32,829 bases of DNA from Patescibacteria group bacterium. GTDB taxonomy: Bacteria > Patescibacteriota > Minisyncoccia > UBA6257 > Colwellbacteraceae. Positions 8,525-32,829 of the stretch are shown here, in pieces (within the stretch, counting starts at the first letter, position 1; every line of letters begins with the position of its first letter). The stretch is taken from the NCBI GenBank assembly GCA_022705565.1, contig JAKJEF010000001.1, positions 75,748 to 108,576 on the forward strand, written 5' to 3'. Under the pieces are notes generated by a model. The model searched no databases and was not told where the DNA came from. It saw only the letters and a list, made by a program, of their open reading frames with translations. Made by a program: the position numbers and the translations under genes.

Positions 8525-8658
8525 CAAAAACAAAAATCCCTCTCCTATGATTACCCGGCCGAAGCCAAGGTGGGAATCCTCAATCCTCGCCCACGGGTGA
8601 AGATGCTATCGGTTTCCCCCAAAAATATCTTTGATCCGGAATCATAAGGAGAGGGATC
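8525..8658 (-). ncRNA. Candidate structured small RNA, family not recognised
   Basis: A 5' segment at 8640-8657 and a 3' segment at 8536-8552 form a 17-bp terminal stem with a single bulged base (8646). Inside are two hairpins: GTGGG/CCCAC with a 15-nt loop, and a GGC-TTCG-GCC tetraloop, both enclosed by ACCC/GGGT. A 5-bp AAGAT/ATCTT pairing is also possible. A promoter with extended -10 predicts transcription from 8657-8658, exactly at the stem base. The 3' side runs into TTTTTGTTTTT. There is no open reading frame of note and no SRP, RNase P or tmRNA signature. A 6S-like regulator is possible by size and shape but unproven. Confidence 0.7.
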
Positions 8659-8664
8659 AATCTG

Positions 8665-8691
8665 ATTATACCACCCGGAATTTATGTTCAA
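8665..8691 (-). promoter_or_regulatory. Promoter of the small RNA, extended -10 TGGTATAAT
   Basis: On the minus strand TTGAAC (8686-8691), a 15-nt spacer and TATAAT (8665-8670) preceded by TGG are seen. The predicted start at 8657-8658 coincides with the first base of the RNA's terminal stem. Confidence 0.75.
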
Positions 8692-8728: not shown

Positions 8729-9340
8729 CTATTCCAGTATTCCGTCCAAATTGACGTCGTATAATATTTCTTCGGTCACCAGACGATAGTTGATCAACTC
8801 TTCCGGCTTGAACCAGAGATCGACTTCCATCTTCGCCTCTTCGGGAGAGCCGGAAGCGTGGATGATATTTCTCGTGATTCTTCCGTCTTCGTCCGCGGCC
8901 TGGTACGAATCGATGGTGAAATCGCCGCGGATGGTTCCGACATCGGAAACCAAAGGCTCGGTGCTGCCGGTGATCTTCCGGACAACGGCCGCGGCATGCA
9001 TTCCCTGCCAGATCATGGCCACCACCGGACCGGAACTTAGATATTTTTTCAACTTGGCCAAGGTGATGGCGTTTACGGCGAGCGGATCTTCCGAAGGCGG
9101 AACAAGGCCCTTGGCCTTGTAAGCCTCGATGGTCTTTTTTCCGTTCCGTTCGCGCCAGGTCGGATCCAAGGTGTAATGCTTTTCCGTGAATTCCGGAGTC
9201 GGAACGAGCATCTTGATCCCCACGAGCTTCAATCCCGATCGCTCATAACGCTTGATAACCTCGCCGATCAATCCCCTTTGCACGCCGTCCGGCTTGATAA
9301 CGACGAGCGTTCGCTCTTTTTTGTCTATCTGCTCCGCCAT
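8729..9340 (-). CDS. ndk: Nucleoside diphosphate kinase with insertion
   Basis: NDK balances nucleotide pools by moving the gamma phosphate through a phospho-histidine. The 203-aa protein has VVIKPDGV (residues 13-20), the SGPVVAMIWQG block (103-113), VGTIRGDF (134-141) and the active His161 in NIIHASGSPEEA. The usual length is about 140 aa. The extra length comes from about 30 residues inserted around 57-98, a short insert before the active site, and a C-terminal extension. The catalytic elements are intact, so it is probably active. It is the last gene of the aspS run. Confidence 0.93.
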   Translation of the reverse strand: MAEQIDKKERTLVVIKPDGVQRGLIGEVIKRYERSGLKLVGIKMLVPTPEFTEKHYTLDPTWRERNGKKTIEAYKAKGLVPPSEDPLAVNAITLAKLKKYLSSGPVVAMIWQGMHAAAVVRKITGSTEPLVSDVGTIRGDFTIDSYQAADEDGRITRNIIHASGSPEEAKMEVDLWFKPEELINYRLVTEEILYDVNLDGILE

Positions 9341-9373
9341 GATTTTATTTTTAGTTTTTTATTAACGACGTTT

Positions 9374-9544
9374 TTAAAGATTTTGGAAATAAACGATCGC
9401 TTCGCGGAAAACGATGAACCCGAACCAGAAAAGGATACCGTAGGCGGCGATGACGATCAAAATCATGAGAAGCTTGATCGCGGCTTCGAGAACTTTGGTC
9501 AGCCATTCGCCCAAACTGTCGAACCAGCTTTTTGGTTGGATCAT
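9374..9544 (-). CDS. Small single-pass membrane protein (56 aa), unknown
   Basis: I found this reading frame by translating the aspS-ndk gap. It begins MIQPKSWFDSLGEWL, has one long hydrophobic segment at about residues 22-46, and ends REAIVYFQNL. Its ATG overlaps the aspS TGA as ATGA, a classic coupling arrangement, which argues that it is translated. The N-terminal part is a short amphipathic helix. I do not recognise the family. Only its position after aspS and before ndk hints at anything, and that does not define a function. Confidence 0.65.
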   Translation of the reverse strand: MIQPKSWFDSLGEWLTKVLEAAIKLLMILIVIAAYGILFWFGFIVFREAIVYFQNL

Positions 9545-10953
9545 TTTGTTTTTTTCTTGATTTCGAAACCGAGCTCGTCGAGTTGCGACTTGTCGACTTC
9601 CGAAGGCGCGTCCATCATCAGATCCCGACCGTCTCCGGTTTTCGGGAAAGCAATCACCTCCCTGATGTTCGGTTCGTTCTGCATGACCATGACGAACCGG
9701 TCGATGCCCGGAGCGATTCCTCCGTGCGGCGGCACCCCGTATCGAAAGGCCTCAAGCATGTGGCCGAACCGCTCTCTCACGATTTCCGGATCGTTCCCCA
9801 TAGCCTCGAAAACCGCCTCGAGTAGTTCCGGATCGTGGATTCTTATGGATCCGCCGCCGATTTCGTAGCCGTTAAGGACGAAATCGTACTGCTTGGCGGG
9901 TATCGCCGCCGGGTCTTTCGCGAACATTTCCTTGAATTCGGCAACGTCTTTCACTTTTGGCTGGGTAAAAGGATGATGCACCGCGTCCCAGCGTTTTTCC
10001 GTTTCTTTCCACTCGAAAGCCGGAAAATCGACAACGAAAAGAAACGCCAGTTCGTCCGGATCGTTCTTATTGTCACGGATATCCGGTTTGTCGCTTCCGT
10101 ATTTTTCCATCGCCTCCTTGTAGGTCATCACGGGGATGCGGCCGTCCGGACCGAGTTTTACTTTTTTCTTTGGATAGAGATCAGCCACGAGTCCCAAATA
10201 AAGCTCTTCGGCGAGAGCCATCACTTCTTTCTCGTCGACAAAACTCATCTCGATGTCGAGCTGGGTGAATTCCGGTTGGCGGTCGCCGCGCGAATCCTCG
10301 TCTCGGAAACAGCGGGCGATCTGGAAATATCTTTCGAATCCGGCGACCATCAAAAGCTGTTTGTACTGCTGGGGAGATTGCGGCAAAGCGTAAAATTTCC
10401 CCGGATAAACGCGCGAAGGCACGAGATAATCCCTCGCCCCTTCAGGCGTGGATTTGCTGATGATCGGAGTTTCGATCTCCACGAAATCTTTTTTGGCCAG
10501 ATATTCCCGCATGTAGCGGATGATCTTGTTGCGGTTTCTCATGTTGTCCGCCATTCTTTTCTGCCGCAGATCGAGATAACGGTATTTCATCCTCGTATCT
10601 TCGCTTATGTCGCGGCCGTCGGTGTCAATCTCGAAAGGCGGCGTCTTGGCTTCGCTGATCACTTCGAGCTCTTTTACTTGGATTTCTATCCGGCCGGTTT
10701 CTATTTCCGGATTGACCATTGTTTCCGGTCTTGCAGCTACTGTTCCTTTTATTCCGATCACCCATTCGAGCCTCAAGCTCTGGGCTTTGTCGTAATCGGG
10801 GATATCCGGCGTGAAAACCAATTGGATCAATCCGCTTCTGTCCCGAAGGTCGATAAAAACAAGCTTGCCGTGGTCGCGTCTCGCGTGGACCCAGCCTTTG
10901 AGTTCGACTTCTTCTCCGATCCTCGATACGGCTTCTTTGTTCAAAATGCGCAT
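9541..10953 (-). CDS. aspS: Aspartyl-tRNA synthetase lacking the GAD insertion
   Basis: This class II synthetase charges tRNA-Asp, and possibly tRNA-Asn. The N-terminal OB-fold (GWVHARRDHGKLVFIDLRDR) is followed by the catalytic core with FRDEDSRGDRQPEFTQ (motif 2) and GIAPGIDRFVM (motif 3). The bacterial signature HHPFTQPK is present. At 470 aa it is over 100 residues shorter than typical bacterial enzymes. Sequence passes directly from YGSDKPDIRD to DELAFLFVVDFPAFEW, so the GAD domain normally inserted there is absent. A leaderless promoter lies at its ATG. Confidence 0.95.
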   Translation of the reverse strand: MRILNKEAVSRIGEEVELKGWVHARRDHGKLVFIDLRDRSGLIQLVFTPDIPDYDKAQSLRLEWVIGIKGTVAARPETMVNPEIETGRIEIQVKELEVISEAKTPPFEIDTDGRDISEDTRMKYRYLDLRQKRMADNMRNRNKIIRYMREYLAKKDFVEIETPIISKSTPEGARDYLVPSRVYPGKFYALPQSPQQYKQLLMVAGFERYFQIARCFRDEDSRGDRQPEFTQLDIEMSFVDEKEVMALAEELYLGLVADLYPKKKVKLGPDGRIPVMTYKEAMEKYGSDKPDIRDNKNDPDELAFLFVVDFPAFEWKETEKRWDAVHHPFTQPKVKDVAEFKEMFAKDPAAIPAKQYDFVLNGYEIGGGSIRIHDPELLEAVFEAMGNDPEIVRERFGHMLEAFRYGVPPHGGIAPGIDRFVMVMQNEPNIREVIAFPKTGDGRDLMMDAPSEVDKSQLDELGFEIKKKTK

Positions 10954-14710: not shown

Positions 14711-16168
14711 TTATTGTTTCGTCTCTTCGGTGTTTTTCGTCTGCGGTGTTTCGGCCGCGTTCGATCCCAAAGCGTCGCTCAAGGCCTTTCTCAAATCGTC
14801 GATGATGATAGGCTTTCTTTCTTTCGGACGCAAGAGCTGGTTTATCGGCAGCTCGCTCCGACGTTCGGCTTTTTCCTCGACAACGTCCTCTCGCCTGGTC
14901 CACTCTTCGGCGATCTGCTTCTCGACGGTCGCTTTGGGCGTGCCGTGTTTTTTCCGACTCTGTTCGACGATAAGTTCGCTGAAGGATTCCTTAGGCTTCA
15001 AAGCCGGAGGCAAGTTCTGAATCGAGAAAGGTCGTGAAGGAGCTCCGTCGATGATCATTTTGATGTAGGCGTGCCAGTTGCTCAAATTGACCAAATCCTT
15101 GTCTTCGAATTCCGGCAAAAATTCTTTTTCCAAAAATTCGGCGTCTTCGGCGCCGACGCGAAAAACGATCATCGTCCCGACGTTGCCGATAATGGCCGCC
15201 TTGACGAGGTCGGTCAGCTGCTCCAGATATTGGTGCGCCAGGATCAAGCTCAAGCGGTATTTACGCGCTTCGGAAAGGACGACGGCGAAAGAATCCGTGG
15301 AAAAATTCTGGAACTCGTCGATATAAAGGAAAAAGTCGCGGCGTTCCGCTTCCGGCACGTCGGCCCGACTCATGGCCGCCTGTTGGAGTTTGGTGATGAG
15401 CATTGCTCCCAAAAGATTGGAATTGTCCTCGCCGATTTTTCCGCGGGCCAGATTGGCGATCAGTATTTTTCCCTCGTCCATGACGCTTCTCATGTTGAGA
15501 CCGGAGATCTGCTGGCCGATGACGTTTCTGATCAAAGGATTGGAAACGAATTGCCCGACTTTGTTCTGGATGGCGCCGACGGCTTCGGTGGCGTAACGAT
15601 CCGTGTACCTGGCGAACTCGTTCACCCAGAAGCTCTTGACGACCGGGTCTTCCAAACGGTCGACCACGGTCTCGCGGTATTTTTTCTCGGCGAGCATTCT
15701 CATGATTCCGAGCAAAGTCGAGCCCGGATATTCCAAAAGCGCGAGCAAGGTATTGTTCAAAATATATTCCATCCTGGCGGACCAGACATCCGGCCAGATT
15801 TTCTTGAAAACGGACATGATGCCCGAAGCCACCAGATGCCGGTGTTCTCCGTGGACGTTTTCCAGGGCGTTGAATCCTATCGGGAAATCCGTGTCCGCCG
15901 GATTGAAATAAATGACGTCGTTGATCCGCTCCGCCGGAATGAAACTCAACAGTTTTTCCGCCGCGTCTCCGTGGGGGTCGAACCAGGCGGCTCCGTGTCC
16001 GGACTGCACGTCTTCGATGAACATCCGCTCCATCATCGTCGTCTTGCCGACGCCGCTTTTTCCGATCATGTACATGTGCCGCCTTCGGTCATCGGTTTTG
16101 ATGCCGAATTTGACAACGCGATTGCGAAAATTGGTCTGACCGAAATAAATTACCTCGTTCGTGTCCAT
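14711..16168 (-). CDS. VirD4/HerA-like type IV secretion DNA-pumping ATPase
   Basis: This belongs to the FtsK-HerA superfamily of NTPases that move DNA or anchor to type IV secretion systems. Walker A GKSGVGKTT is at residues 36-44, AWFDPHGD follows at about 61-68, and Walker B FFLYIDEFQNF starts at about 279. A sensor-like SLILAHQYLEQL follows. The C-terminal 90 residues are charged and probably disordered. No membrane segment is present. The gene directly upstream encodes a membrane protein that probably supplies the anchor. Conjugation, competence and surface export are all possible; none is shown. Confidence 0.85.
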   Translation of the reverse strand: MDTNEVIYFGQTNFRNRVVKFGIKTDDRRRHMYMIGKSGVGKTTMMERMFIEDVQSGHGAAWFDPHGDAAEKLLSFIPAERINDVIYFNPADTDFPIGFNALENVHGEHRHLVASGIMSVFKKIWPDVWSARMEYILNNTLLALLEYPGSTLLGIMRMLAEKKYRETVVDRLEDPVVKSFWVNEFARYTDRYATEAVGAIQNKVGQFVSNPLIRNVIGQQISGLNMRSVMDEGKILIANLARGKIGEDNSNLLGAMLITKLQQAAMSRADVPEAERRDFFLYIDEFQNFSTDSFAVVLSEARKYRLSLILAHQYLEQLTDLVKAAIIGNVGTMIVFRVGAEDAEFLEKEFLPEFEDKDLVNLSNWHAYIKMIIDGAPSRPFSIQNLPPALKPKESFSELIVEQSRKKHGTPKATVEKQIAEEWTRREDVVEEKAERRSELPINQLLRPKERKPIIIDDLRKALSDALGSNAAETPQTKNTEETKQ

Positions 16169-16178
16169 GTCTTATGGA

Positions 16179-16184
16179 ATTATA
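16179..16184 (-). promoter_or_regulatory. -10 box before the VirD4-like gene
   Basis: A perfect TATAAT in the 36-nt gap has a predicted start near 16172, 4 nt before the ATG. No good -35 or TG extension is seen, so this is a weak or internal promoter at best. Confidence 0.35.
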
Positions 16185-16204
16185 ACCTTGTAAAGGATTC
16201 GGAG

Positions 16205-17551
16205 CTATTCTTCGATCGGCAGGTTGGCCGGAGCTTCGGCTTTGACCGCTTCGGTCTTGACGATTCCGGGAGCGCCGACGTCGGTCACCGGGAAATGGTA
16301 AATGGTCGCCAGCTCCTCGACGTTCCACAAAGAAATCTCCGGCACGCGATCCTTGAGATAAGGAGTATAAAACTGTTGCCAAGGAGAACGCATGTCGAAT
16401 TTCCGGTTGATGAAATGTTTATAAACGGATTTCTTTTTCCAAAGCAGAGTCCTGTCCCTGAAAAGGAATCTCGGCTTTTTGGTGAAAGTCGTCGGATCCG
16501 GCCTCATAAAATTCAGATGACCCACCGAGAAAATCTGGAAAGAAGAGACAAGAGCGTAAAACTTTCCCCTGTCGGCGATGCTTTTTCGGGCGATATAGAC
16601 AAATCGCGGTATGGCCTTAAAAACCAGTTTTGAGGCTTTGGCGTTCGCCGCCCGGATTTGTTCTTTTTGTTCGGCGGTCAATTCGTCGTCTCTTTTGGGG
16701 ATAAATTTTTTCTTTCCGGTTATGGGGTCTATTTTTTGTTTTCCGGTTGCGGGATCAATATCGGGTTTAAGAGCGATTTTATTGATGTATTCCTCGGACA
16801 GTTTCTTGAAATCGCCACTGTTATAAGGCTGCATCAATATCTGGTACCAGATATGTTCGCCTTCCTTCAGGTTGGCCATCGCCTCCAAAAGTCCGGCGAT
16901 CGGATCGATTTTCTCGACGTCGAACCGGAAACGGCTGATTGTGGCGCCTCCGGAAAAATCCGTGTAAGTCCTCATCGGCAAAGCGTTATTCGCGCCTCTT
17001 TTCCCGAGAATCATATCCGCCCCGAAGACGTCGTATTCGTCGTTCGGCAGATCAAGCGGCAGGATTTTGGTGTAATCTTCAATTTCGGTGATTTCGGCAT
17101 CCGGATACTGCCCGTAAATCGCCGACTGCACGGTATTCTTGTCTTTGGTCGGAAAATAAAAAATAAACCTGATTTGGTTGTGGGAAGCGGCGATCTCCGC
17201 CGAGATCCAGTCCTCGATCTTTCCTTCGAGAACGACTTCTTCCGGCTTCAAACCGAAGCTGTAAATGCCGAAGATGTTCGCGAAAACCTGCTCCATGGAT
17301 TTGGGAGATTTGATGTTCTCCCGCGGAACTTTGATTTCCACACTCATCCAAGGAAGCTTCTTCAGATAATCCGTCTGGATGGTATCCATCCACCAGAGCT
17401 TGAAAAATCGGTAAAGCGCCGTGAAGATAATAAGGAGAACCCCGCCGACGACGATCGTCTCGATGACGACCAAGTAGCTCGCCTCGGTGAAATGCACCAG
17501 GTTCGATATGAAATTGATTATGAATTTGACGGCGTTTTCTATTCTGACCAT
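16205..17551 (-). CDS. DUF8128-like membrane protein paired with the VirD4-like ATPase
   Basis: The function is unknown. The 448-aa protein has one strong membrane segment near residues 26-48 (SYLVVIETIVVGGVLLIIFT). A long cytoplasmic part follows, with KLPWMSVEIKVPRENIKSPKS, WISAEIAASHNQIRFIFYFP, GQYPDAEI and, near the C-terminus, SLWNVEELATIYHFP. A charged stretch with two DPxTGK repeats lies at about 268-290. From memory this resembles the DUF8128 family found beside VirD4-like ATPases in Patescibacteria. That assignment is recall, not a search. It likely anchors the ATPase to the membrane. It overlaps the upstream gene by 13 nt. Confidence 0.7.
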   Translation of the reverse strand: MVRIENAVKFIINFISNLVHFTEASYLVVIETIVVGGVLLIIFTALYRFFKLWWMDTIQTDYLKKLPWMSVEIKVPRENIKSPKSMEQVFANIFGIYSFGLKPEEVVLEGKIEDWISAEIAASHNQIRFIFYFPTKDKNTVQSAIYGQYPDAEITEIEDYTKILPLDLPNDEYDVFGADMILGKRGANNALPMRTYTDFSGGATISRFRFDVEKIDPIAGLLEAMANLKEGEHIWYQILMQPYNSGDFKKLSEEYINKIALKPDIDPATGKQKIDPITGKKKFIPKRDDELTAEQKEQIRAANAKASKLVFKAIPRFVYIARKSIADRGKFYALVSSFQIFSVGHLNFMRPDPTTFTKKPRFLFRDRTLLWKKKSVYKHFINRKFDMRSPWQQFYTPYLKDRVPEISLWNVEELATIYHFPVTDVGAPGIVKTEAVKAEAPANLPIEE

Positions 17552-18375
17552 TGTTTCAGGCCGTAGGTTCCCCGCGAGACCAAAACGAATTTGTCCCTGT
17601 CTTTGATGAGTTCGTTATGGACGGTCGGGGCGTGGCTCTCGATCATCGAAGCGATTTCCGTGAAATGGAGCGGCCGGCCCGATTTTTTCAAAGCCAGATA
17701 GATCTTGGCTCTTACTGTTCTCGGATTGATCTCGTCCCAGTCGCGAAGCCCGAGATCACCGTAAGGGCCGACTCCGATTTTTTTGGAAACGGAAATGTAA
17801 TTCAGGGCCACCGGCTCAGTGATGTGCTGCGGAACGATTATCGAACGGAGGATGTCCAAAAATTCTTCGGTTTTTTTCAGCTGTCGCAAAAGCGAAGAGT
17901 GAACCGACTCCAAAGTCGCCAAAGCGTCTTCTTGCGAATACCAAAAATCGTAGTAGTCTTCGTTTTCTTTTTGGAAATGCGGAGTGTCCTTCAACTGAAG
18001 CAAAAATCTCAATTTGTTCTTGAAGACCGCTTCTTCCGATTCCGGACGCGAAAGATTATAGATGTCCTTCATCAAGAAATCGTCTCCCCTGACGCCGCCG
18101 GTTCCGGAAAGATAATCGACGATGAATTCGATTAATTTGTCGGTTTCGGCGATTTTCGCGGCCGCTCTTTTCAGATCAATCAAAGCTTCCGCTTCCACCT
18201 GGCGGACCCTTTCGCGGGTGACGCCGTAAGTATTCCCGAGCTCCTGAAGAGTGGCCGGTTTGTCGGCAGCCAAGCCGAATCGTTTTTCGACGATTTTCCG
18301 GCTCCGGTCGTCGAGCTCTGTCTTCCCGATGACAGCCTCGACCAATTCTTCAATGCTCAAGGGATTTTGTTTCAT
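17539..18375 (-). CDS. Sigma-70 region 4-like protein fused to a HARE-HTH domain
   Basis: This is a probable transcription regulator of 278 aa. The N-terminal 80 residues match sigma region 4: DDRSRKIVEKRFGL, then a helix-turn-helix LQELGNTYGVTRERVRQVEAEAL that would bind a -35-like site. No region 2 is present, so it cannot act as an ordinary sigma factor. The C-terminal 70 residues (GRPLHFTEIASMI, APTVHNELIKDRDKFVLVSRGTYGL) fit a HARE-HTH domain as in the RNA polymerase delta subunit. The start is taken at the ATG at 18373-18375, because a longer frame from 18417 would overlap the promoter. It heads the VirD4/comEC gene run. Confidence 0.82.
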   Translation of the reverse strand: MKQNPLSIEELVEAVIGKTELDDRSRKIVEKRFGLAADKPATLQELGNTYGVTRERVRQVEAEALIDLKRAAAKIAETDKLIEFIVDYLSGTGGVRGDDFLMKDIYNLSRPESEEAVFKNKLRFLLQLKDTPHFQKENEDYYDFWYSQEDALATLESVHSSLLRQLKKTEEFLDILRSIIVPQHITEPVALNYISVSKKIGVGPYGDLGLRDWDEINPRTVRAKIYLALKKSGRPLHFTEIASMIESHAPTVHNELIKDRDKFVLVSRGTYGLKQWSE

Positions 18376-18382
18376 ATTGTGT

Positions 18383-18417
18383 ATTATAAAATTACAACGT
18401 TTTCTTACCCGTGTCAA
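18383..18417 (-). promoter_or_regulatory. Promoter of the sigma4/HARE-HTH gene
   Basis: TATAAT (18383-18388) predicts initiation at 18376, 1 nt before the ATG. A perfect TTGACA (18412-18417) lies upstream, but the gap to TATAAT is 23 nt. With the alternative -10 TAATTT (18389-18394) the spacer is 17 nt. Which pair is used cannot be told from sequence. Confidence 0.55.
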
Positions 18418-27186: not shown

Positions 27187-29505
27187 TCAATATTGCGGCC
27201 ATTTGCCTTCCCGGAACAGGGTAAAAGCTTTTACAACTTCTCCGAATAATTTCTCAAGCCCTTTAAATGATTCTGGTTGCGGTCTCGTCTCCTCTATTCC
27301 GGCTCCGAAGACTCTGACCGTCGCCTCTTTGGTATCGGAATCAAGATAACATTGTTCCGGCTCCAGAGTATCGCTATTCCGGCAGATGAGATTATAATCA
27401 GTGGTTTTCTGGGGAGAAACCCGATAAGAGTCCCCGCTCGGAAGAGAACTCGTAAAATTGACTCCATTGCCTCGAAGAGTACAGAATTTGTCGGTCGGAG
27501 AACCAAGCTCCTCAAAACGGGAAACCCATCTCAAGGTGGAATACTTGCGCCCAATAACTTCGTTGGCGGTATAGAGTATATCCACCGGATTGGCGAAAAA
27601 TTCAGGAATGGTCGGTCTGGAAACCACTCTCACCTCGGTTTTTCTGGATCTCGAGGCGGTATAAGTGGAATATCCGCGATGAGTTTCTCCCGGGCACATT
27701 CGAGAACAAGTCTCTCCGCTACCGCAGCGTCTGCAAACCGATCCTTCGCATTCGCAGGGGTAATCAGGATCGGTCACGTCTTCATAACATCTGTAACTAA
27801 GGTCGCACGTCAGGCCGTATTCGGAACGCCAATTCGGGCTGACAATATCCGATCCATCGGCCGAAGCGACTGTCCAATCTCCGCAAATATCTTTACAAGT
27901 AATTTGGATACTGTTTCTATCGAGAGTTTCTCCAGGGCCGCAAGACAAATTACTTGTCTCGGTTTCCCATTCTATCTCCGTAGAACTTCCTTCGGTCATG
28001 CACTGGTTAGAGGAAAGGGTAAGATTAAGTCCGGTTCCTTGGTCTCCCGGCATAGGAGAACAAGTGGAGCCGCCGCCGGAAGAAGCTCCGCAAGCCTGAG
28101 CGCAAGAAGTGGGGGTCGTATAACAGGCTTTTCCTTGGGCTGTCTCGCAATCACTTAAGGAAGCGTAGTTTCCGCTTGAACAAGAGCCGTTCGGATTGCA
28201 CCAGGAATAAGTAGTTACACTGGAACAGTTTAATCCGCAATCTTCTTCTGTATAACATTCGGAGCCAACCTCTTCTTTGCAAGCCTCTTTACTAAGAAAA
28301 GCTTTTTGGCTTTGGACGCAATTGTGAGCCAAAGGAGAACAATAATAGAATCTTCCAGGCTCAATGGGAGTTTGTTCTCCGGAAGCACAGGAAGAAGAAC
28401 AGATTTCGTAGACGGGATCTCTTTTCTCGAAGCAATAAAGACCTCCTTCGCCGTCGACGCAGTCGTTATAGCTCGTATAGTTTTTACATTTGACCGAGAC
28501 CGGACAGTTATCTCTGCAGACATAAATGTCGTTGCAAAGATAGTCGCATTCTTCTTTGGTAAGATCGTCTCTTAAGATTCCGCTATTCAAATAAGTGGAA
28601 GCGAGAGTCGGAGAAATACCGAGTGCTTCAAGAGTACCGTATTCACAAGGAGAGTTACAATCAGGATGGTAGCAAAAGTTCTCGACTGGAACGGGATTAC
28701 ATATACTTTGGCACTCACTCGGATCGATAACAGCTCCGGAGTTCCATTTCATGTTGCTTCCGGCCGGACAAACTCCTTCGGGTGGAGGGTAGTTATCGTT
28801 TGTTTCTCCGTAATACGGAACCGAAGAAACAGGATTATTGGTTTGGTTGTTACAGCAGCATTTGTAGAAGTTGCCTGATCCGATATCGCAGGAGCCCGCC
28901 CAGAGTCCGACATTATTAGCTAAGCATTGGTTGGAGGAGTTCTGGTTGGTACATTTGTCGGCCAGGGAGTAGAGACGACGGTCGATACGATATCGATAAT
29001 CATTACGGAATATTCCTGATCTTGGAAGTATTTCTTCTCTACATCTTACAATTTGATATTTACCCCAAGGTTGCAGATTATCTGTTCCGGCTATATGCAA
29101 ATCTCTCCCTGCTTGTCCGCAAGACATTCCAGAACAACCGCCAGTGCTATTTACACTGTATGAAGTGACACAGGTACTATATGGTTCCGGATTGCAACAA
29201 GATAATGGCAGAGAATCATCTAATCCCGGCTTACAGCCTTCTTCTTGCCATCGTTCATATTTTCCTTGTATCCAAACTTCATCTTTCGCGGATTTAATAA
29301 TACTTCCCGAAGGAATATACGTAGGTTCAACTTCTGATGGAGCGACACATTCATCACCAGCGCAAATTTGTCCGTTTATACATTGAAAATAGCTATCCGG
29401 AGGATAATCACCCTCAAAGCATTGAACAAACTGCGCTTGAATTGTTTTTGGGTTTAATAATAAGCACCCGACTATCAAAATCGCGAAAAAGAAAATCTTT
29501 TTCAT
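27187..29505 (-). CDS. Large secreted cysteine-rich surface protein
   Basis: The function is unknown. The protein is 772 aa, with a clear signal peptide MKKIFFFAILIVGCLLL ending near TIQAQ. The mature part carries about 60 cysteines by my count, often in CC, CCC or CxxxC groups, over its first 610 residues. This implies many disulphides in an extracellular setting. The C-terminal part has two Ig-like stretches (LNLTLSSNQCMTEGSSTEIE and the segment from LYTANEVIGRKYSTLRWVS to TTDYNLICRN), a style seen in Patescibacteria surface proteins. No LPXTG or C-terminal anchor is evident. The start is the ATG right after its promoter, not the in-frame ATG 27 nt upstream. Confidence 0.8.
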   Translation of the reverse strand: MKKIFFFAILIVGCLLLNPKTIQAQFVQCFEGDYPPDSYFQCINGQICAGDECVAPSEVEPTYIPSGSIIKSAKDEVWIQGKYERWQEEGCKPGLDDSLPLSCCNPEPYSTCVTSYSVNSTGGCSGMSCGQAGRDLHIAGTDNLQPWGKYQIVRCREEILPRSGIFRNDYRYRIDRRLYSLADKCTNQNSSNQCLANNVGLWAGSCDIGSGNFYKCCCNNQTNNPVSSVPYYGETNDNYPPPEGVCPAGSNMKWNSGAVIDPSECQSICNPVPVENFCYHPDCNSPCEYGTLEALGISPTLASTYLNSGILRDDLTKEECDYLCNDIYVCRDNCPVSVKCKNYTSYNDCVDGEGGLYCFEKRDPVYEICSSSCASGEQTPIEPGRFYYCSPLAHNCVQSQKAFLSKEACKEEVGSECYTEEDCGLNCSSVTTYSWCNPNGSCSSGNYASLSDCETAQGKACYTTPTSCAQACGASSGGGSTCSPMPGDQGTGLNLTLSSNQCMTEGSSTEIEWETETSNLSCGPGETLDRNSIQITCKDICGDWTVASADGSDIVSPNWRSEYGLTCDLSYRCYEDVTDPDYPCECEGSVCRRCGSGETCSRMCPGETHRGYSTYTASRSRKTEVRVVSRPTIPEFFANPVDILYTANEVIGRKYSTLRWVSRFEELGSPTDKFCTLRGNGVNFTSSLPSGDSYRVSPQKTTDYNLICRNSDTLEPEQCYLDSDTKEATVRVFGAGIEETRPQPESFKGLEKLFGEVVKAFTLFREGKWPQY

Positions 29506-29512
29506 TGAATTG

Positions 29513-29521
29513 ATTATATCA
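29513..29521 (-). promoter_or_regulatory. Promoter of the cysteine-rich protein gene, TGATATAAT
   Basis: A consensus extended -10 (TATAAT at 29513-29518 with TGA before it) predicts a start at 29506, 1 nt before the ATG. No -35 is visible. It lies just downstream of a terminator, so the gene is transcribed separately from its upstream neighbour. Confidence 0.75.
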
Positions 29522-29528
29522 TAGACAA

Positions 29529-29564
29529 ACAAAAACCCCGCCCATCTATAAGATGTAAGCGGGG
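29529..29564 (-). terminator. Terminator of the Pro-rich membrane-anchored protein gene
   Basis: Stem CCCCGC/GCGGGG (29559-29564 with 29536-29541) with an inner CATCT/AGATG hairpin is followed by TTTTTG on the minus strand. It begins directly after the TAG stop. Confidence 0.88.
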
Positions 29565-30893: not shown

Positions 30894-32114
30894 TTATCTC
30901 CCGGATTTATACAAAGATTTTATCTCGTTCTCGGAAAGAGCTCGGCTATAAACACGAACTTCATCGAGTGATCCTTTAAAGAAGTTTTGCGTTCCCTTGA
31001 AACTGGCTGCTAGACAATTGTAAACACTGGTCATGTCTCCAGAGACAGCGACGGTGGTTTGCAAAACTCCGTTTTTATAAGAATGGATTGTATTTCCGTC
31101 TTTGACGGCTGTTATTAGTGTCCAATCGAACAACCTGCCCGTGTTAAAACGAATCGGCCATCTATTGGTTCCATTTTGAACCTCAAAAAGTAAATCCGAT
31201 GGCGTGGTCGCGGTACTGATATGCCAGCCCATGTATCCTGCCGTAAAGAAAGCATTGTTTTTTCCTATAACTTGATATAAGGCATCTTGAGTGCTTGTCA
31301 TCCACATCGATACCGTGGCGGACGTATGCATATTCAAATTATCATTGGCGCCAAAGTTCACCCAATCGTCAATTCCATCAAGATAAAGAGCATTCCCCAC
31401 CTTTCCCTCGACAAAGGCCATGCCCGAACCGTTCGCGTTCGAAGCCGTGCCGTTGTTCTGGAAAGCAGATTGGTCTTCGAGCCCGAGGGTCTGGCCGTTC
31501 ACGATCGATCCGGAGCCGTCGAAGGGCCAATAAGCGACGAGCCCGGACGGAAGATTCCACAGGGAAAGGTTGGTTCCCATTTCCATTCTCGCGGGATCGA
31601 TTCCTTTGTCTTTCAGGGCCGAAGATTTGAGATATCTCTCGGATTCGAGCAAGGCCGTGATCTCGTACGATCCGCCGGACATGTAAGTGTAGTAATAGGA
31701 AACGGAGTTTGCCGGATCGACCGGTAAAGTGGGTATGGGAGAACCTCCGGGAATGGAAGAGAAGTCGACCGGAATCCAGCCGGAACCGTTAATCTTTCTC
31801 AAGTTCGCTTCGGTGACGCAGGAATACTGGTAAGGAGCCGGAAGACCCGGCAAAGAATACGAAGAACAATTGACGTTATTGTCCGGAAGGGAAAGATAGA
31901 CGTAATTCTGATTGCCTCCGGGTTCGCCTCTCTGGGTGGTATAGATGAAGAGCATCTCGTTCAAGGATCTGAGGTCGGAAAGCCTCACCGAGTCCCGAGA
32001 TTCCGCGAGAAGTTCCGAGGGATTCAGGACAACGACGGTGGCCGCGGTCAAGGCGGCGAGGATGCCGATGACGACGAGAAGTTCGATAAGGGTGAAGGAC
32101 GGAGAAATCTTCAT
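30894..32114 (-). CDS. Type II/IV pseudopilin fused to a LamG-like domain
   Basis: The N-terminus MKISPSFTLIELLVVIGILAA is a class III signal and pilin helix with Glu at mature position 5; the cleavage site has Ser rather than the usual Gly before Phe. A pilin-like head (about residues 35-190, with YYYTYMSGGSYEITALLES) is followed by a LamG/concanavalin-type domain. That domain runs from GLVAYWPFDGSGSIVNG to SLDEVRVYSRALSENEIKSL. LamG domains often bind glycans or proteins, so this looks like an adhesive tip subunit of a pilus-like fibre. It is monocistronic with its own promoter. It shares a 77-bp identical block with the partial paralogue beyond the tRNA. Confidence 0.88.
   Translation of the reverse strand: MKISPSFTLIELLVVIGILAALTAATVVVLNPSELLAESRDSVRLSDLRSLNEMLFIYTTQRGEPGGNQNYVYLSLPDNNVNCSSYSLPGLPAPYQYSCVTEANLRKINGSGWIPVDFSSIPGGSPIPTLPVDPANSVSYYYTYMSGGSYEITALLESERYLKSSALKDKGIDPARMEMGTNLSLWNLPSGLVAYWPFDGSGSIVNGQTLGLEDQSAFQNNGTASNANGSGMAFVEGKVGNALYLDGIDDWVNFGANDNLNMHTSATVSMWMTSTQDALYQVIGKNNAFFTAGYMGWHISTATTPSDLLFEVQNGTNRWPIRFNTGRLFDWTLITAVKDGNTIHSYKNGVLQTTVAVSGDMTSVYNCLAASFKGTQNFFKGSLDEVRVYSRALSENEIKSLYKSGR
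31356..31432 (-). repeat. 77-bp direct repeat, copy 1, in the LamG domain
   Basis: This is base-for-base identical to 32753-32829. It encodes the GSGMAFVEGKVGNALYLDGI segment and the DDWV motif after it, at the front of the LamG domain. Copy 2 reaches the window edge, so the true repeat may be longer. Confidence 0.95.
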
Positions 32115-32129
32115 TGATTAATAGTCTAA

Positions 32130-32138
32130 ATTATAACA
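32130..32138 (-). promoter_or_regulatory. Promoter of the pseudopilin-LamG gene, TGTTATAAT
   Basis: A consensus extended -10 (TATAAT at 32130-32135, TG at 32137-32138). The predicted start near 32123 leaves about 9 nt before the ATG. It lies between the gene and tRNA-Glu. Confidence 0.7.
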
Positions 32139-32154
32139 GGCCACCAAGCAGATG

Positions 32155-32227
32155 CGCTCCCACCGGGAATCGAACCCGGGTTTTTAGGATGAGAACCTAA
32201 TGTCCTTGGCCACTAGACGATAGGAGC
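32155..32227 (-). tRNA. tRNA-Glu (anticodon CTC)
   Basis: Cloverleaf: acceptor GCTCCTA/TGGGAGC, D-stem GTCT/GGAC, anticodon stem TTAGG/CCTAA with loop TTCTCAT (CTC), T-arm CCGGG-TTCGATT-CCCGG. The discriminator is G, as expected for Glu, and no CCA is encoded. It sits between two pseudopilin-LamG paralogues. Confidence 0.95.
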
Positions 32228-32272
32228 AACGAATAAATACTGCCAAAAATTAGACAAAAAGTGAAGTTCGGA

Positions 32273-32829
32273 TCATTTCTCCGCTTTATATATCGCCCTG
32301 GCTTCTTCGGCCGACAAAACGCGGTTATAGATCCTTACCTCGTCCAAATTCCCTTTCGCGAAATACATCGCTTCGTCGGCATAGCTCGCGCCGATAGTGA
32401 CCGGCGTCGCGAAGTTGGTTTTCAAAACACCTCCGAAGTTGTCGGAATAAACAAGGTTACCGTTGACGTATACCTGATAAGTCGATCCGTTCCATGTTCC
32501 CAACAGATGGGCCCAAGTATTTGTTCCGACTCCGCCCACCTGTCTATCGAGTGATCCTCCGGTGGCCGTATAAAGGCTGAACCTGTATGTCGATTGGTAA
32601 TAACCCAATTGGTAACAAGAGGTCGCCGTGGTTTCCGAGGTGTCGGAATATTGTTTGGAAATAATCCGACTGGTTCCTCCGGGGGCCGGGGTGTTGAACC
32701 AGCCGGCGAGAGTGATCGGACCGGAAATATTGACGCTCGCGCCGTTCCCGGCGTTCACCCAATCGTCAATTCCATCAAGATAAAGAGCATTCCCCACCTT
32801 TCCCTCGACAAAGGCCATGCCCGAACCGT
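32273..32829 (-). CDS. LamG-domain protein, probable second pseudopilin, 5' end outside window
   Basis: The open frame runs past the right edge, so the start and any pilin helix are not seen. The visible 185 or so residues are a LamG domain: GSGMAFVEGKVGNALYLDGI, ITLAGWFNTPAPGGTSRIIS, NTWAHLLGTWNGSTYQVYVN and NLDEVRIYNRVLSAEEARAI. The first part is identical at the DNA level to the neighbouring pseudopilin-LamG gene over 77 bp; the rest is clearly diverged. By that relationship it is probably another pseudopilin-LamG fusion, but this is inference. Confidence 0.8.
   Translation of the reverse strand, partial: GSGMAFVEGKVGNALYLDGIDDWVNAGNGASVNISGPITLAGWFNTPAPGGTSRIISKQYSDTSETTATSCYQLGYYQSTYRFSLYTATGGSLDRQVGGVGTNTWAHLLGTWNGSTYQVYVNGNLVYSDNFGGVLKTNFATPVTIGASYADEAMYFAKGNLDEVRIYNRVLSAEEARAIYKAEK
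32753..32829 (-). repeat. 77-bp direct repeat, copy 2, cut by window edge
   Basis: Identical to 31356-31432. Identity starts at the codons for the DDWVN motif and extends upstream in the gene to the edge of the window, so its full length is unknown. Confidence 0.95.

Follow-up and report, generated by a model that had tools for sequence, protein, structure and literature searches.

The locus and its surroundings

The window analysed here is a stretch of 32,829 nucleotides from a Patescibacteria group bacterium of the Colwellbacteraceae (GCA_022705565.1, contig JAKJEF010000001.1). On its minus strand aspS and ndk lie together (8729-10953), aspS being the further upstream, and ndk is followed on the same strand by a gene for a small structured RNA, with tRNA-Pro downstream. 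The features of the RNA gene and its upstream neighbour are given below; R1, R2 and RF00013 are covariance models dealt with in the following sections.

8729-9340, minus strand: ndk (nucleoside diphosphate kinase; PF00334, E 3.7e-37), upstream neighbour of the RNA
8665-8673, minus strand: extended -10 promoter element TGGTATAAT (direct reading; TATAAT conserved in homologues)
8526-8658, minus strand: gene of the putative compact 6S RNA, 133 nt from the predicted start to the end of the T-run (R1 and R2 matches of 102-116 bits)
8638-8658, minus strand: closing stem, 5' strand (covarying pairs; matched versus swapped duplex energy)
8621-8637, minus strand: central bubble, 5' side, GGAUCAAAGAUAUUUUU (column counts in 75 homologues; matched to the 5' central bubble in the alignment with RF00013)
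8633, minus strand: C, predicted template base for the pRNA start (pyrimidine in 72 of 75 homologues; spacing to the apical arm)
8572-8620, minus strand: apical stem, 49 nt (two helices, covarying)
8557-8571, minus strand: central bubble, 3' side, ACCUUGGCUUCGGCC, with a small hairpin and CCCACCU at its border (RF00013 alignment; hairpin pairs)
8537-8556, minus strand: closing stem, 3' strand (covarying pairs; matched versus swapped duplex energy)
8526-8536, minus strand: T-run TTTTTGTTTTT, probable terminator tail (direct reading; TTTT downstream in homologues)

Several other minus-strand features of the window were recorded. The protein of 17539-18417, beside tRNA-Lys, carries sigma-70 region 4 (PF04545) and a weak HARE-HTH near its end, with no match to region 2, and is possibly an unusual transcription factor. 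At 14711-17551, a TrwB/TraG-like type IV coupling ATPase lies beside a 448-aa protein without a Pfam match. The two adjacent open frames of 30894-32818 have MAFVEGKVGNALYLDGIDDWVN in common, one of them with a pilin-like N-terminus and a laminin-G-like domain, and look like a duplicated surface protein. A cysteine-rich protein of 781 aa without a Pfam match (27187-29532) is probably secreted.

Conservation of the RNA gene

A DNA search retrieved homologues of the RNA from five relatives, two of them in the same genus and the other three elsewhere in the family. A covariance model built from the window copy and these five relatives (R1, six sequences) matched 24 of 27 family genomes (E <= 1e-4). 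A second model (R2), built from those 24 family sequences with no input from 6S RNA, matched 186 of 244 order genomes (E <= 0.01), nearly always in single copy; the other 58 gave no R2 match at that threshold. In an exact-pattern scan of GTDB genomes 13 matches were obtained, 8 titled Patescibacteria, 2 only "bacterium" and 3 from unrelated groups; by rough arithmetic the last three are about the number that chance would give.

The predicted transcription start of the RNA gene is G8658 on the minus strand. The promoter call rests on the extended -10 element, since a simple promoter scan returned no -35/-10 pair at the gene. A perfect TATAAT is present in 44 of 75 homologues and a five-of-six match in 25 of the 75, as compared to a perfect box in 9 of 525 control windows. 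The T-run TTTTTGTTTTT begins right after the closing stem, and a simple scan detected no classical terminator hairpin at the gene. A TTTT follows within 70 nt in 65/75 homologues, as against 24/75 of the control stretches. The RNA is predicted to be about 120-130 nt long.

The nucleoside diphosphate kinase gene is near the RNA in 48 of 94 loci, for the most part lying upstream in the same orientation; it is on the opposite strand in several loci (L053, L061, L083, L097 and L113) and was not found nearby in others. Downstream, tRNA-Pro is not a constant neighbour in relatives. Since the RNA has a conserved promoter of its own and ndk is sometimes elsewhere, it is an RNA gene in its own right and does not belong to ndk. 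It usually follows aspS-ndk, and many families of the order share this same-strand arrangement, a synteny that offers a handle for locating the RNA in divergent genomes. An Rfam match to the SpF41 sRNA near the RNA was rejected, as it is the tRNA-Pro only.

Structure and covariation

Of 200 dinucleotide shuffles, 198 fold less strongly than the minus-strand RNA (z = -3.1). The comparative evidence for the gene is far stronger than the evidence from folding. Among 75 homologues, 88.4% of the cells of the 27 modelled pairs are paired and 25 of the 27 pairs show changes on both sides; such double changes occupy 469 cells, as compared to 131 after shuffling. The covariation score is 0.638; shuffling lowers it to 0.212, and sliding the partners to 0.129 or less. 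All five covariation measures lie above every one of the 500 shuffles and of the slid controls; fitting the alignment to the model works in favour of the structure, but the margin is large. The two apical helices are paired in 85.5% and 95.2% of cells, with 14 of their 16 pairs changed on both sides, and the pairs of the 3' bubble hairpin are kept in 81% of cells.

The covariance models comprise a core of 105 positions because MAFFT misaligned the 3' closing stem of the extended RNAs, and the outer closing stem was tested separately, outside the model. Its mean duplex energy is -13.3 kcal/mol with its own partner and -6.8 kcal/mol with swapped partners. In the 5' bubble, GGAUCAAA forms a nearly invariant opening, followed by an A/U-rich stretch in the 75 homologues.

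The preliminary description of this DNA had proposed an unannotated structured small RNA of about 120-130 nt with its own promoter on the minus strand, and conservation, covariation and the -10 box confirm it. Its long terminal stem is present, at about 8638-8657 with 8537-8556. Both the extended -10 element with a predicted start at the stem base (TGGTATAAT at 8673-8665, start at G8658) and the T-run at the 3' side (TTTTTGTTTTT at 8536-8526) are found in the sequence, with TTTT enriched downstream of homologues. The compensatory changes that it suggested as a check were sought in the 75 homologues, and both-side changes lie far above the shuffled and slid controls. The search of related Patescibacteria, also suggested there, established conservation in the family and order. 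The TTCG hairpin GGCTTCGGCC (within 8557-8571) persists as a hairpin, although its loop sequence varies among relatives.

Probable identity as a 6S RNA

The RNA is best read as a diverged, shortened 6S RNA (SsrS) of a Patescibacteria lineage, acting as a promoter mimic on the sigma70 holoenzyme, a reading to which we assign a probability of roughly 0.88. The Rfam scan of the window returned nothing at the RNA, even at E<1. The curated cut-off (gathering score) of the Rfam 6S model RF00013, 46.4 bits, was reached by no scanned family or order member, the best relative scoring 31 bits. When relatives were scanned with permissive filters, sub-threshold RF00013 matches of 22.7-31 bits fell exactly at the RNA and on its strand in seven loci (L030, L029, L031, L032, L053, L051 and L054). 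The best of them, L030, has an E of 6.7e-5 against all 4227 Rfam families. In its alignment the A/U-rich 5' bubble and GGGAG match RF00013, and the CCCACCU of the relatives equals the consensus CCCACCU.

The reverse match, that of R2 on RF00013 loci, is the decisive test of the 6S identity. R2 matches 20 of 20 RF00013 loci fetched from other parts of the phylum, agreeing with RF00013 in position and strand, with E from 6e-15 to 0.03 over 63 kb; four of these loci lie above the Rfam cut-off, RF00013 scores outside the order reaching 55-60 bits. Homology to recognised 6S RNAs is thus seen in reciprocal model matches, whereas R2 gives no match to E. coli 6S RNA itself, so that the link to 6S runs via intermediates in other Patescibacteria. 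No second 6S RNA was detected in the genome itself or in 20 relatives. The layout is also that of the 6S rod, with a closing stem, an open 5' bubble, a 3' bubble with a small hairpin, and an apical stem. A 6S-like polymerase regulator, one option put forward in the preliminary description, is therefore supported by the reciprocal covariance-model matches; its other option, a lineage-specific RNA, holds only as regards a divergence so great that Rfam misses the RNA.

This form of 6S RNA is widespread in Patescibacteria and was previously missed by Rfam. In 380 sampled Patescibacteria genomes RF00013 gave 4 matches above its cut-off and 30 at E <= 0.1; a third model (R3), which includes the 6S loci found with RF00013, matched 147 of the same 380, a figure that estimates the distribution and is not independent proof because R3 contains 6S loci. 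The standard RNA library thus almost never detects a 6S form that is present in many Patescibacteria. The open-access literature yielded no paper joining 6S RNA with Parcubacteria, Saccharibacteria or the Candidate Phyla Radiation, and the one paper joining it with Patescibacteria concerns mitochondrial SRP.

Comparison with known RNAs and alternative readings

Like the 6S RNAs of E. coli, B. subtilis and A. aeolicus (RF00013), the RNA has a closing stem, an A/U-rich 5' bubble and an apical stem. The 3' side of the bubble begins with CCCACCU and carries a small hairpin, resembling the one that B. subtilis 6S-1 has in its 3' bubble; a template pyrimidine stands 14-15 nt before the apical stem, and the gene is single and independently promoted. 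It differs from typical 6S RNA in being about 120-130 nt long rather than about 180-200, with a shorter apical stem (49 nt) and a shorter closing stem. It differs from RF00013 in that it falls below the Rfam cut-off and has the conserved GGAUCAAA in its 5' bubble. The gene lies beside aspS-ndk, whereas that of E. coli lies between zapA and fau. The 6S RNA of A. aeolicus, of about 160 nt, is among the shortest known (PMC9130861), and the window RNA is shorter still. Longer 6S RNAs of other Patescibacteria (L062-L081), of about 143-161 nt and in four cases beyond the Rfam cut-off, are matched by RF00013 and R2 at the same place.

Ms1 of Actinobacteria shares the rod with a central bubble, binds polymerase and is related to 6S in its structure (PMC9130861). 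A relative of 6S with such a changed partner would bind the core polymerase or another form of the enzyme and store it, with no pRNA template, and this is improbable here. Ms1 itself looked 6S-like yet binds the core enzyme (PMC9130861), and the short closing stem and apical arm of the window RNA would reduce promoter mimicry upstream of the bubble. However, the 5' bubble is among the best-conserved parts of the RNA, and its predicted template pyrimidine is nearly invariant and spaced as in E. coli. Ms1 is also about 300 nt long, with extra terminal hairpins at its 5' and 3' ends, and binds the core polymerase (PMC9130861); the window RNA differs from it in length and structure, and the matches of its family are to RF00013.

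The great sequence divergence, and the window copy having no Rfam match by itself, would fit a new class of structured RNA that has no kinship with 6S and arrived at a similar rod with a bubble by convergence. We hold this to be very improbable, as 20/20 reciprocal matches at the same place and strand speak against it, and on both sides of the bubble the likeness to 6S extends beyond shape to sequence motifs (GGGAG and CCCACCU). An attenuator, leader or 3' UTR element acting in cis and tied to ndk or to the tRNA-Pro that follows is scarcely credible: the frequent proximity of ndk and the adjacent tRNA-Pro in the window are set against a conserved -10 box of the RNA's own, the loci in which ndk is on the opposite strand or not found near, and varying downstream neighbours, tRNA-Pro included.

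The chance that the RNA is the missing SRP RNA of the lineage, diverged past recognition, is negligible: although RF00169 finds no SRP RNA in 41 relatives, the absence of the Ffh M domain from 31 of 31 genomes leaves no SRP partner, the apical loop is CGUG/CUUG/UUCG-like and not the SRP domain IV motif, and the matches are to 6S. SRP RNA was accordingly excluded as a candidate, there being no RF00169 match, no domain IV motif and no Ffh partner.

The signal recognition particle itself seems missing from this genome (G000) and from 30-40 relatives of the same family and order. SRP RNA (RF00169) was found in none of the 41 genomes examined, and the Ffh M domain (PF02978) in none of 31 genomes of the same family and order, while it was detected in 14 of 14 controls. 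Matches to SRP54-type GTPases in the relatives are weak and partial only.

Proposed mechanism

The predicted template pyrimidine lies 14 nt (44 homologues) or 15 nt (20 homologues) before the apical arm, that is, in 64 of the 72 homologues that have it. The corresponding distance in E. coli 6S RNA, from U44 to G59, is 14 nt, U44 being the pRNA start there. As read from the sequence, the 5' bubble holds a candidate template pyrimidine at the right spacing. RNA polymerase prefers to start with a purine, and a pyrimidine template base gives a purine start of the pRNA. As the U beside C8633 is also conserved, the true start may be shifted by one base.

Known 6S RNA is a rod with a central bubble like an open promoter; it binds the housekeeping holoenzyme and is released from the polymerase by the synthesis of a pRNA on itself (PMC9130861, PMC8876501, PMC4227106). 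We infer that the compact 6S RNA would bind the polymerase, inhibit it and template a pRNA. By mimicking an open promoter, it would occupy the housekeeping sigma70 RNA polymerase holoenzyme, and this occupation would lower transcription under nutrient scarcity. Once nucleotides are back, the polymerase would take the 5' bubble as template and start opposite C8633, giving a predicted pRNA like 5'-GAUCCGGAAUC... with the start 5'-GAUCCGGAAU. Extension of the pRNA into the closing stem would unwind the stem, upon which the RNA would refold and the enzyme would be released. Among the reading frames of the genome is one of 419 aa with sigma70 region 2.

B. subtilis 6S-1 RNA trimmed to its bubble and two short arms still goes through the 6S cycle in vitro, although it binds less strongly (PMC8876501), which makes a compact 6S RNA plausible. 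The likeness lies in a bubble between short arms; the truncated constructs are artificial, whereas the Patescibacteria RNA is natural and conserved.

Biological significance

The RNA may represent a natural minimal 6S, its apical and closing stems cut to about the least workable across the order and the polymerase captured mainly via the bubble, a proposal that we put forward tentatively and at somewhat under even odds. If it is true, the RNA would be the shortest 6S found in nature and would serve as a global switch of transcription at the sigma level in host-dependent cells with few regulators. If the 6S reading is right, a global regulator of RNA polymerase has gone unnoticed in one of the largest groups of bacteria, and very short natural 6S RNAs could define the minimum for a promoter mimic. 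The growth-state control of uncultured epibionts would then be testable from metatranscriptomes.
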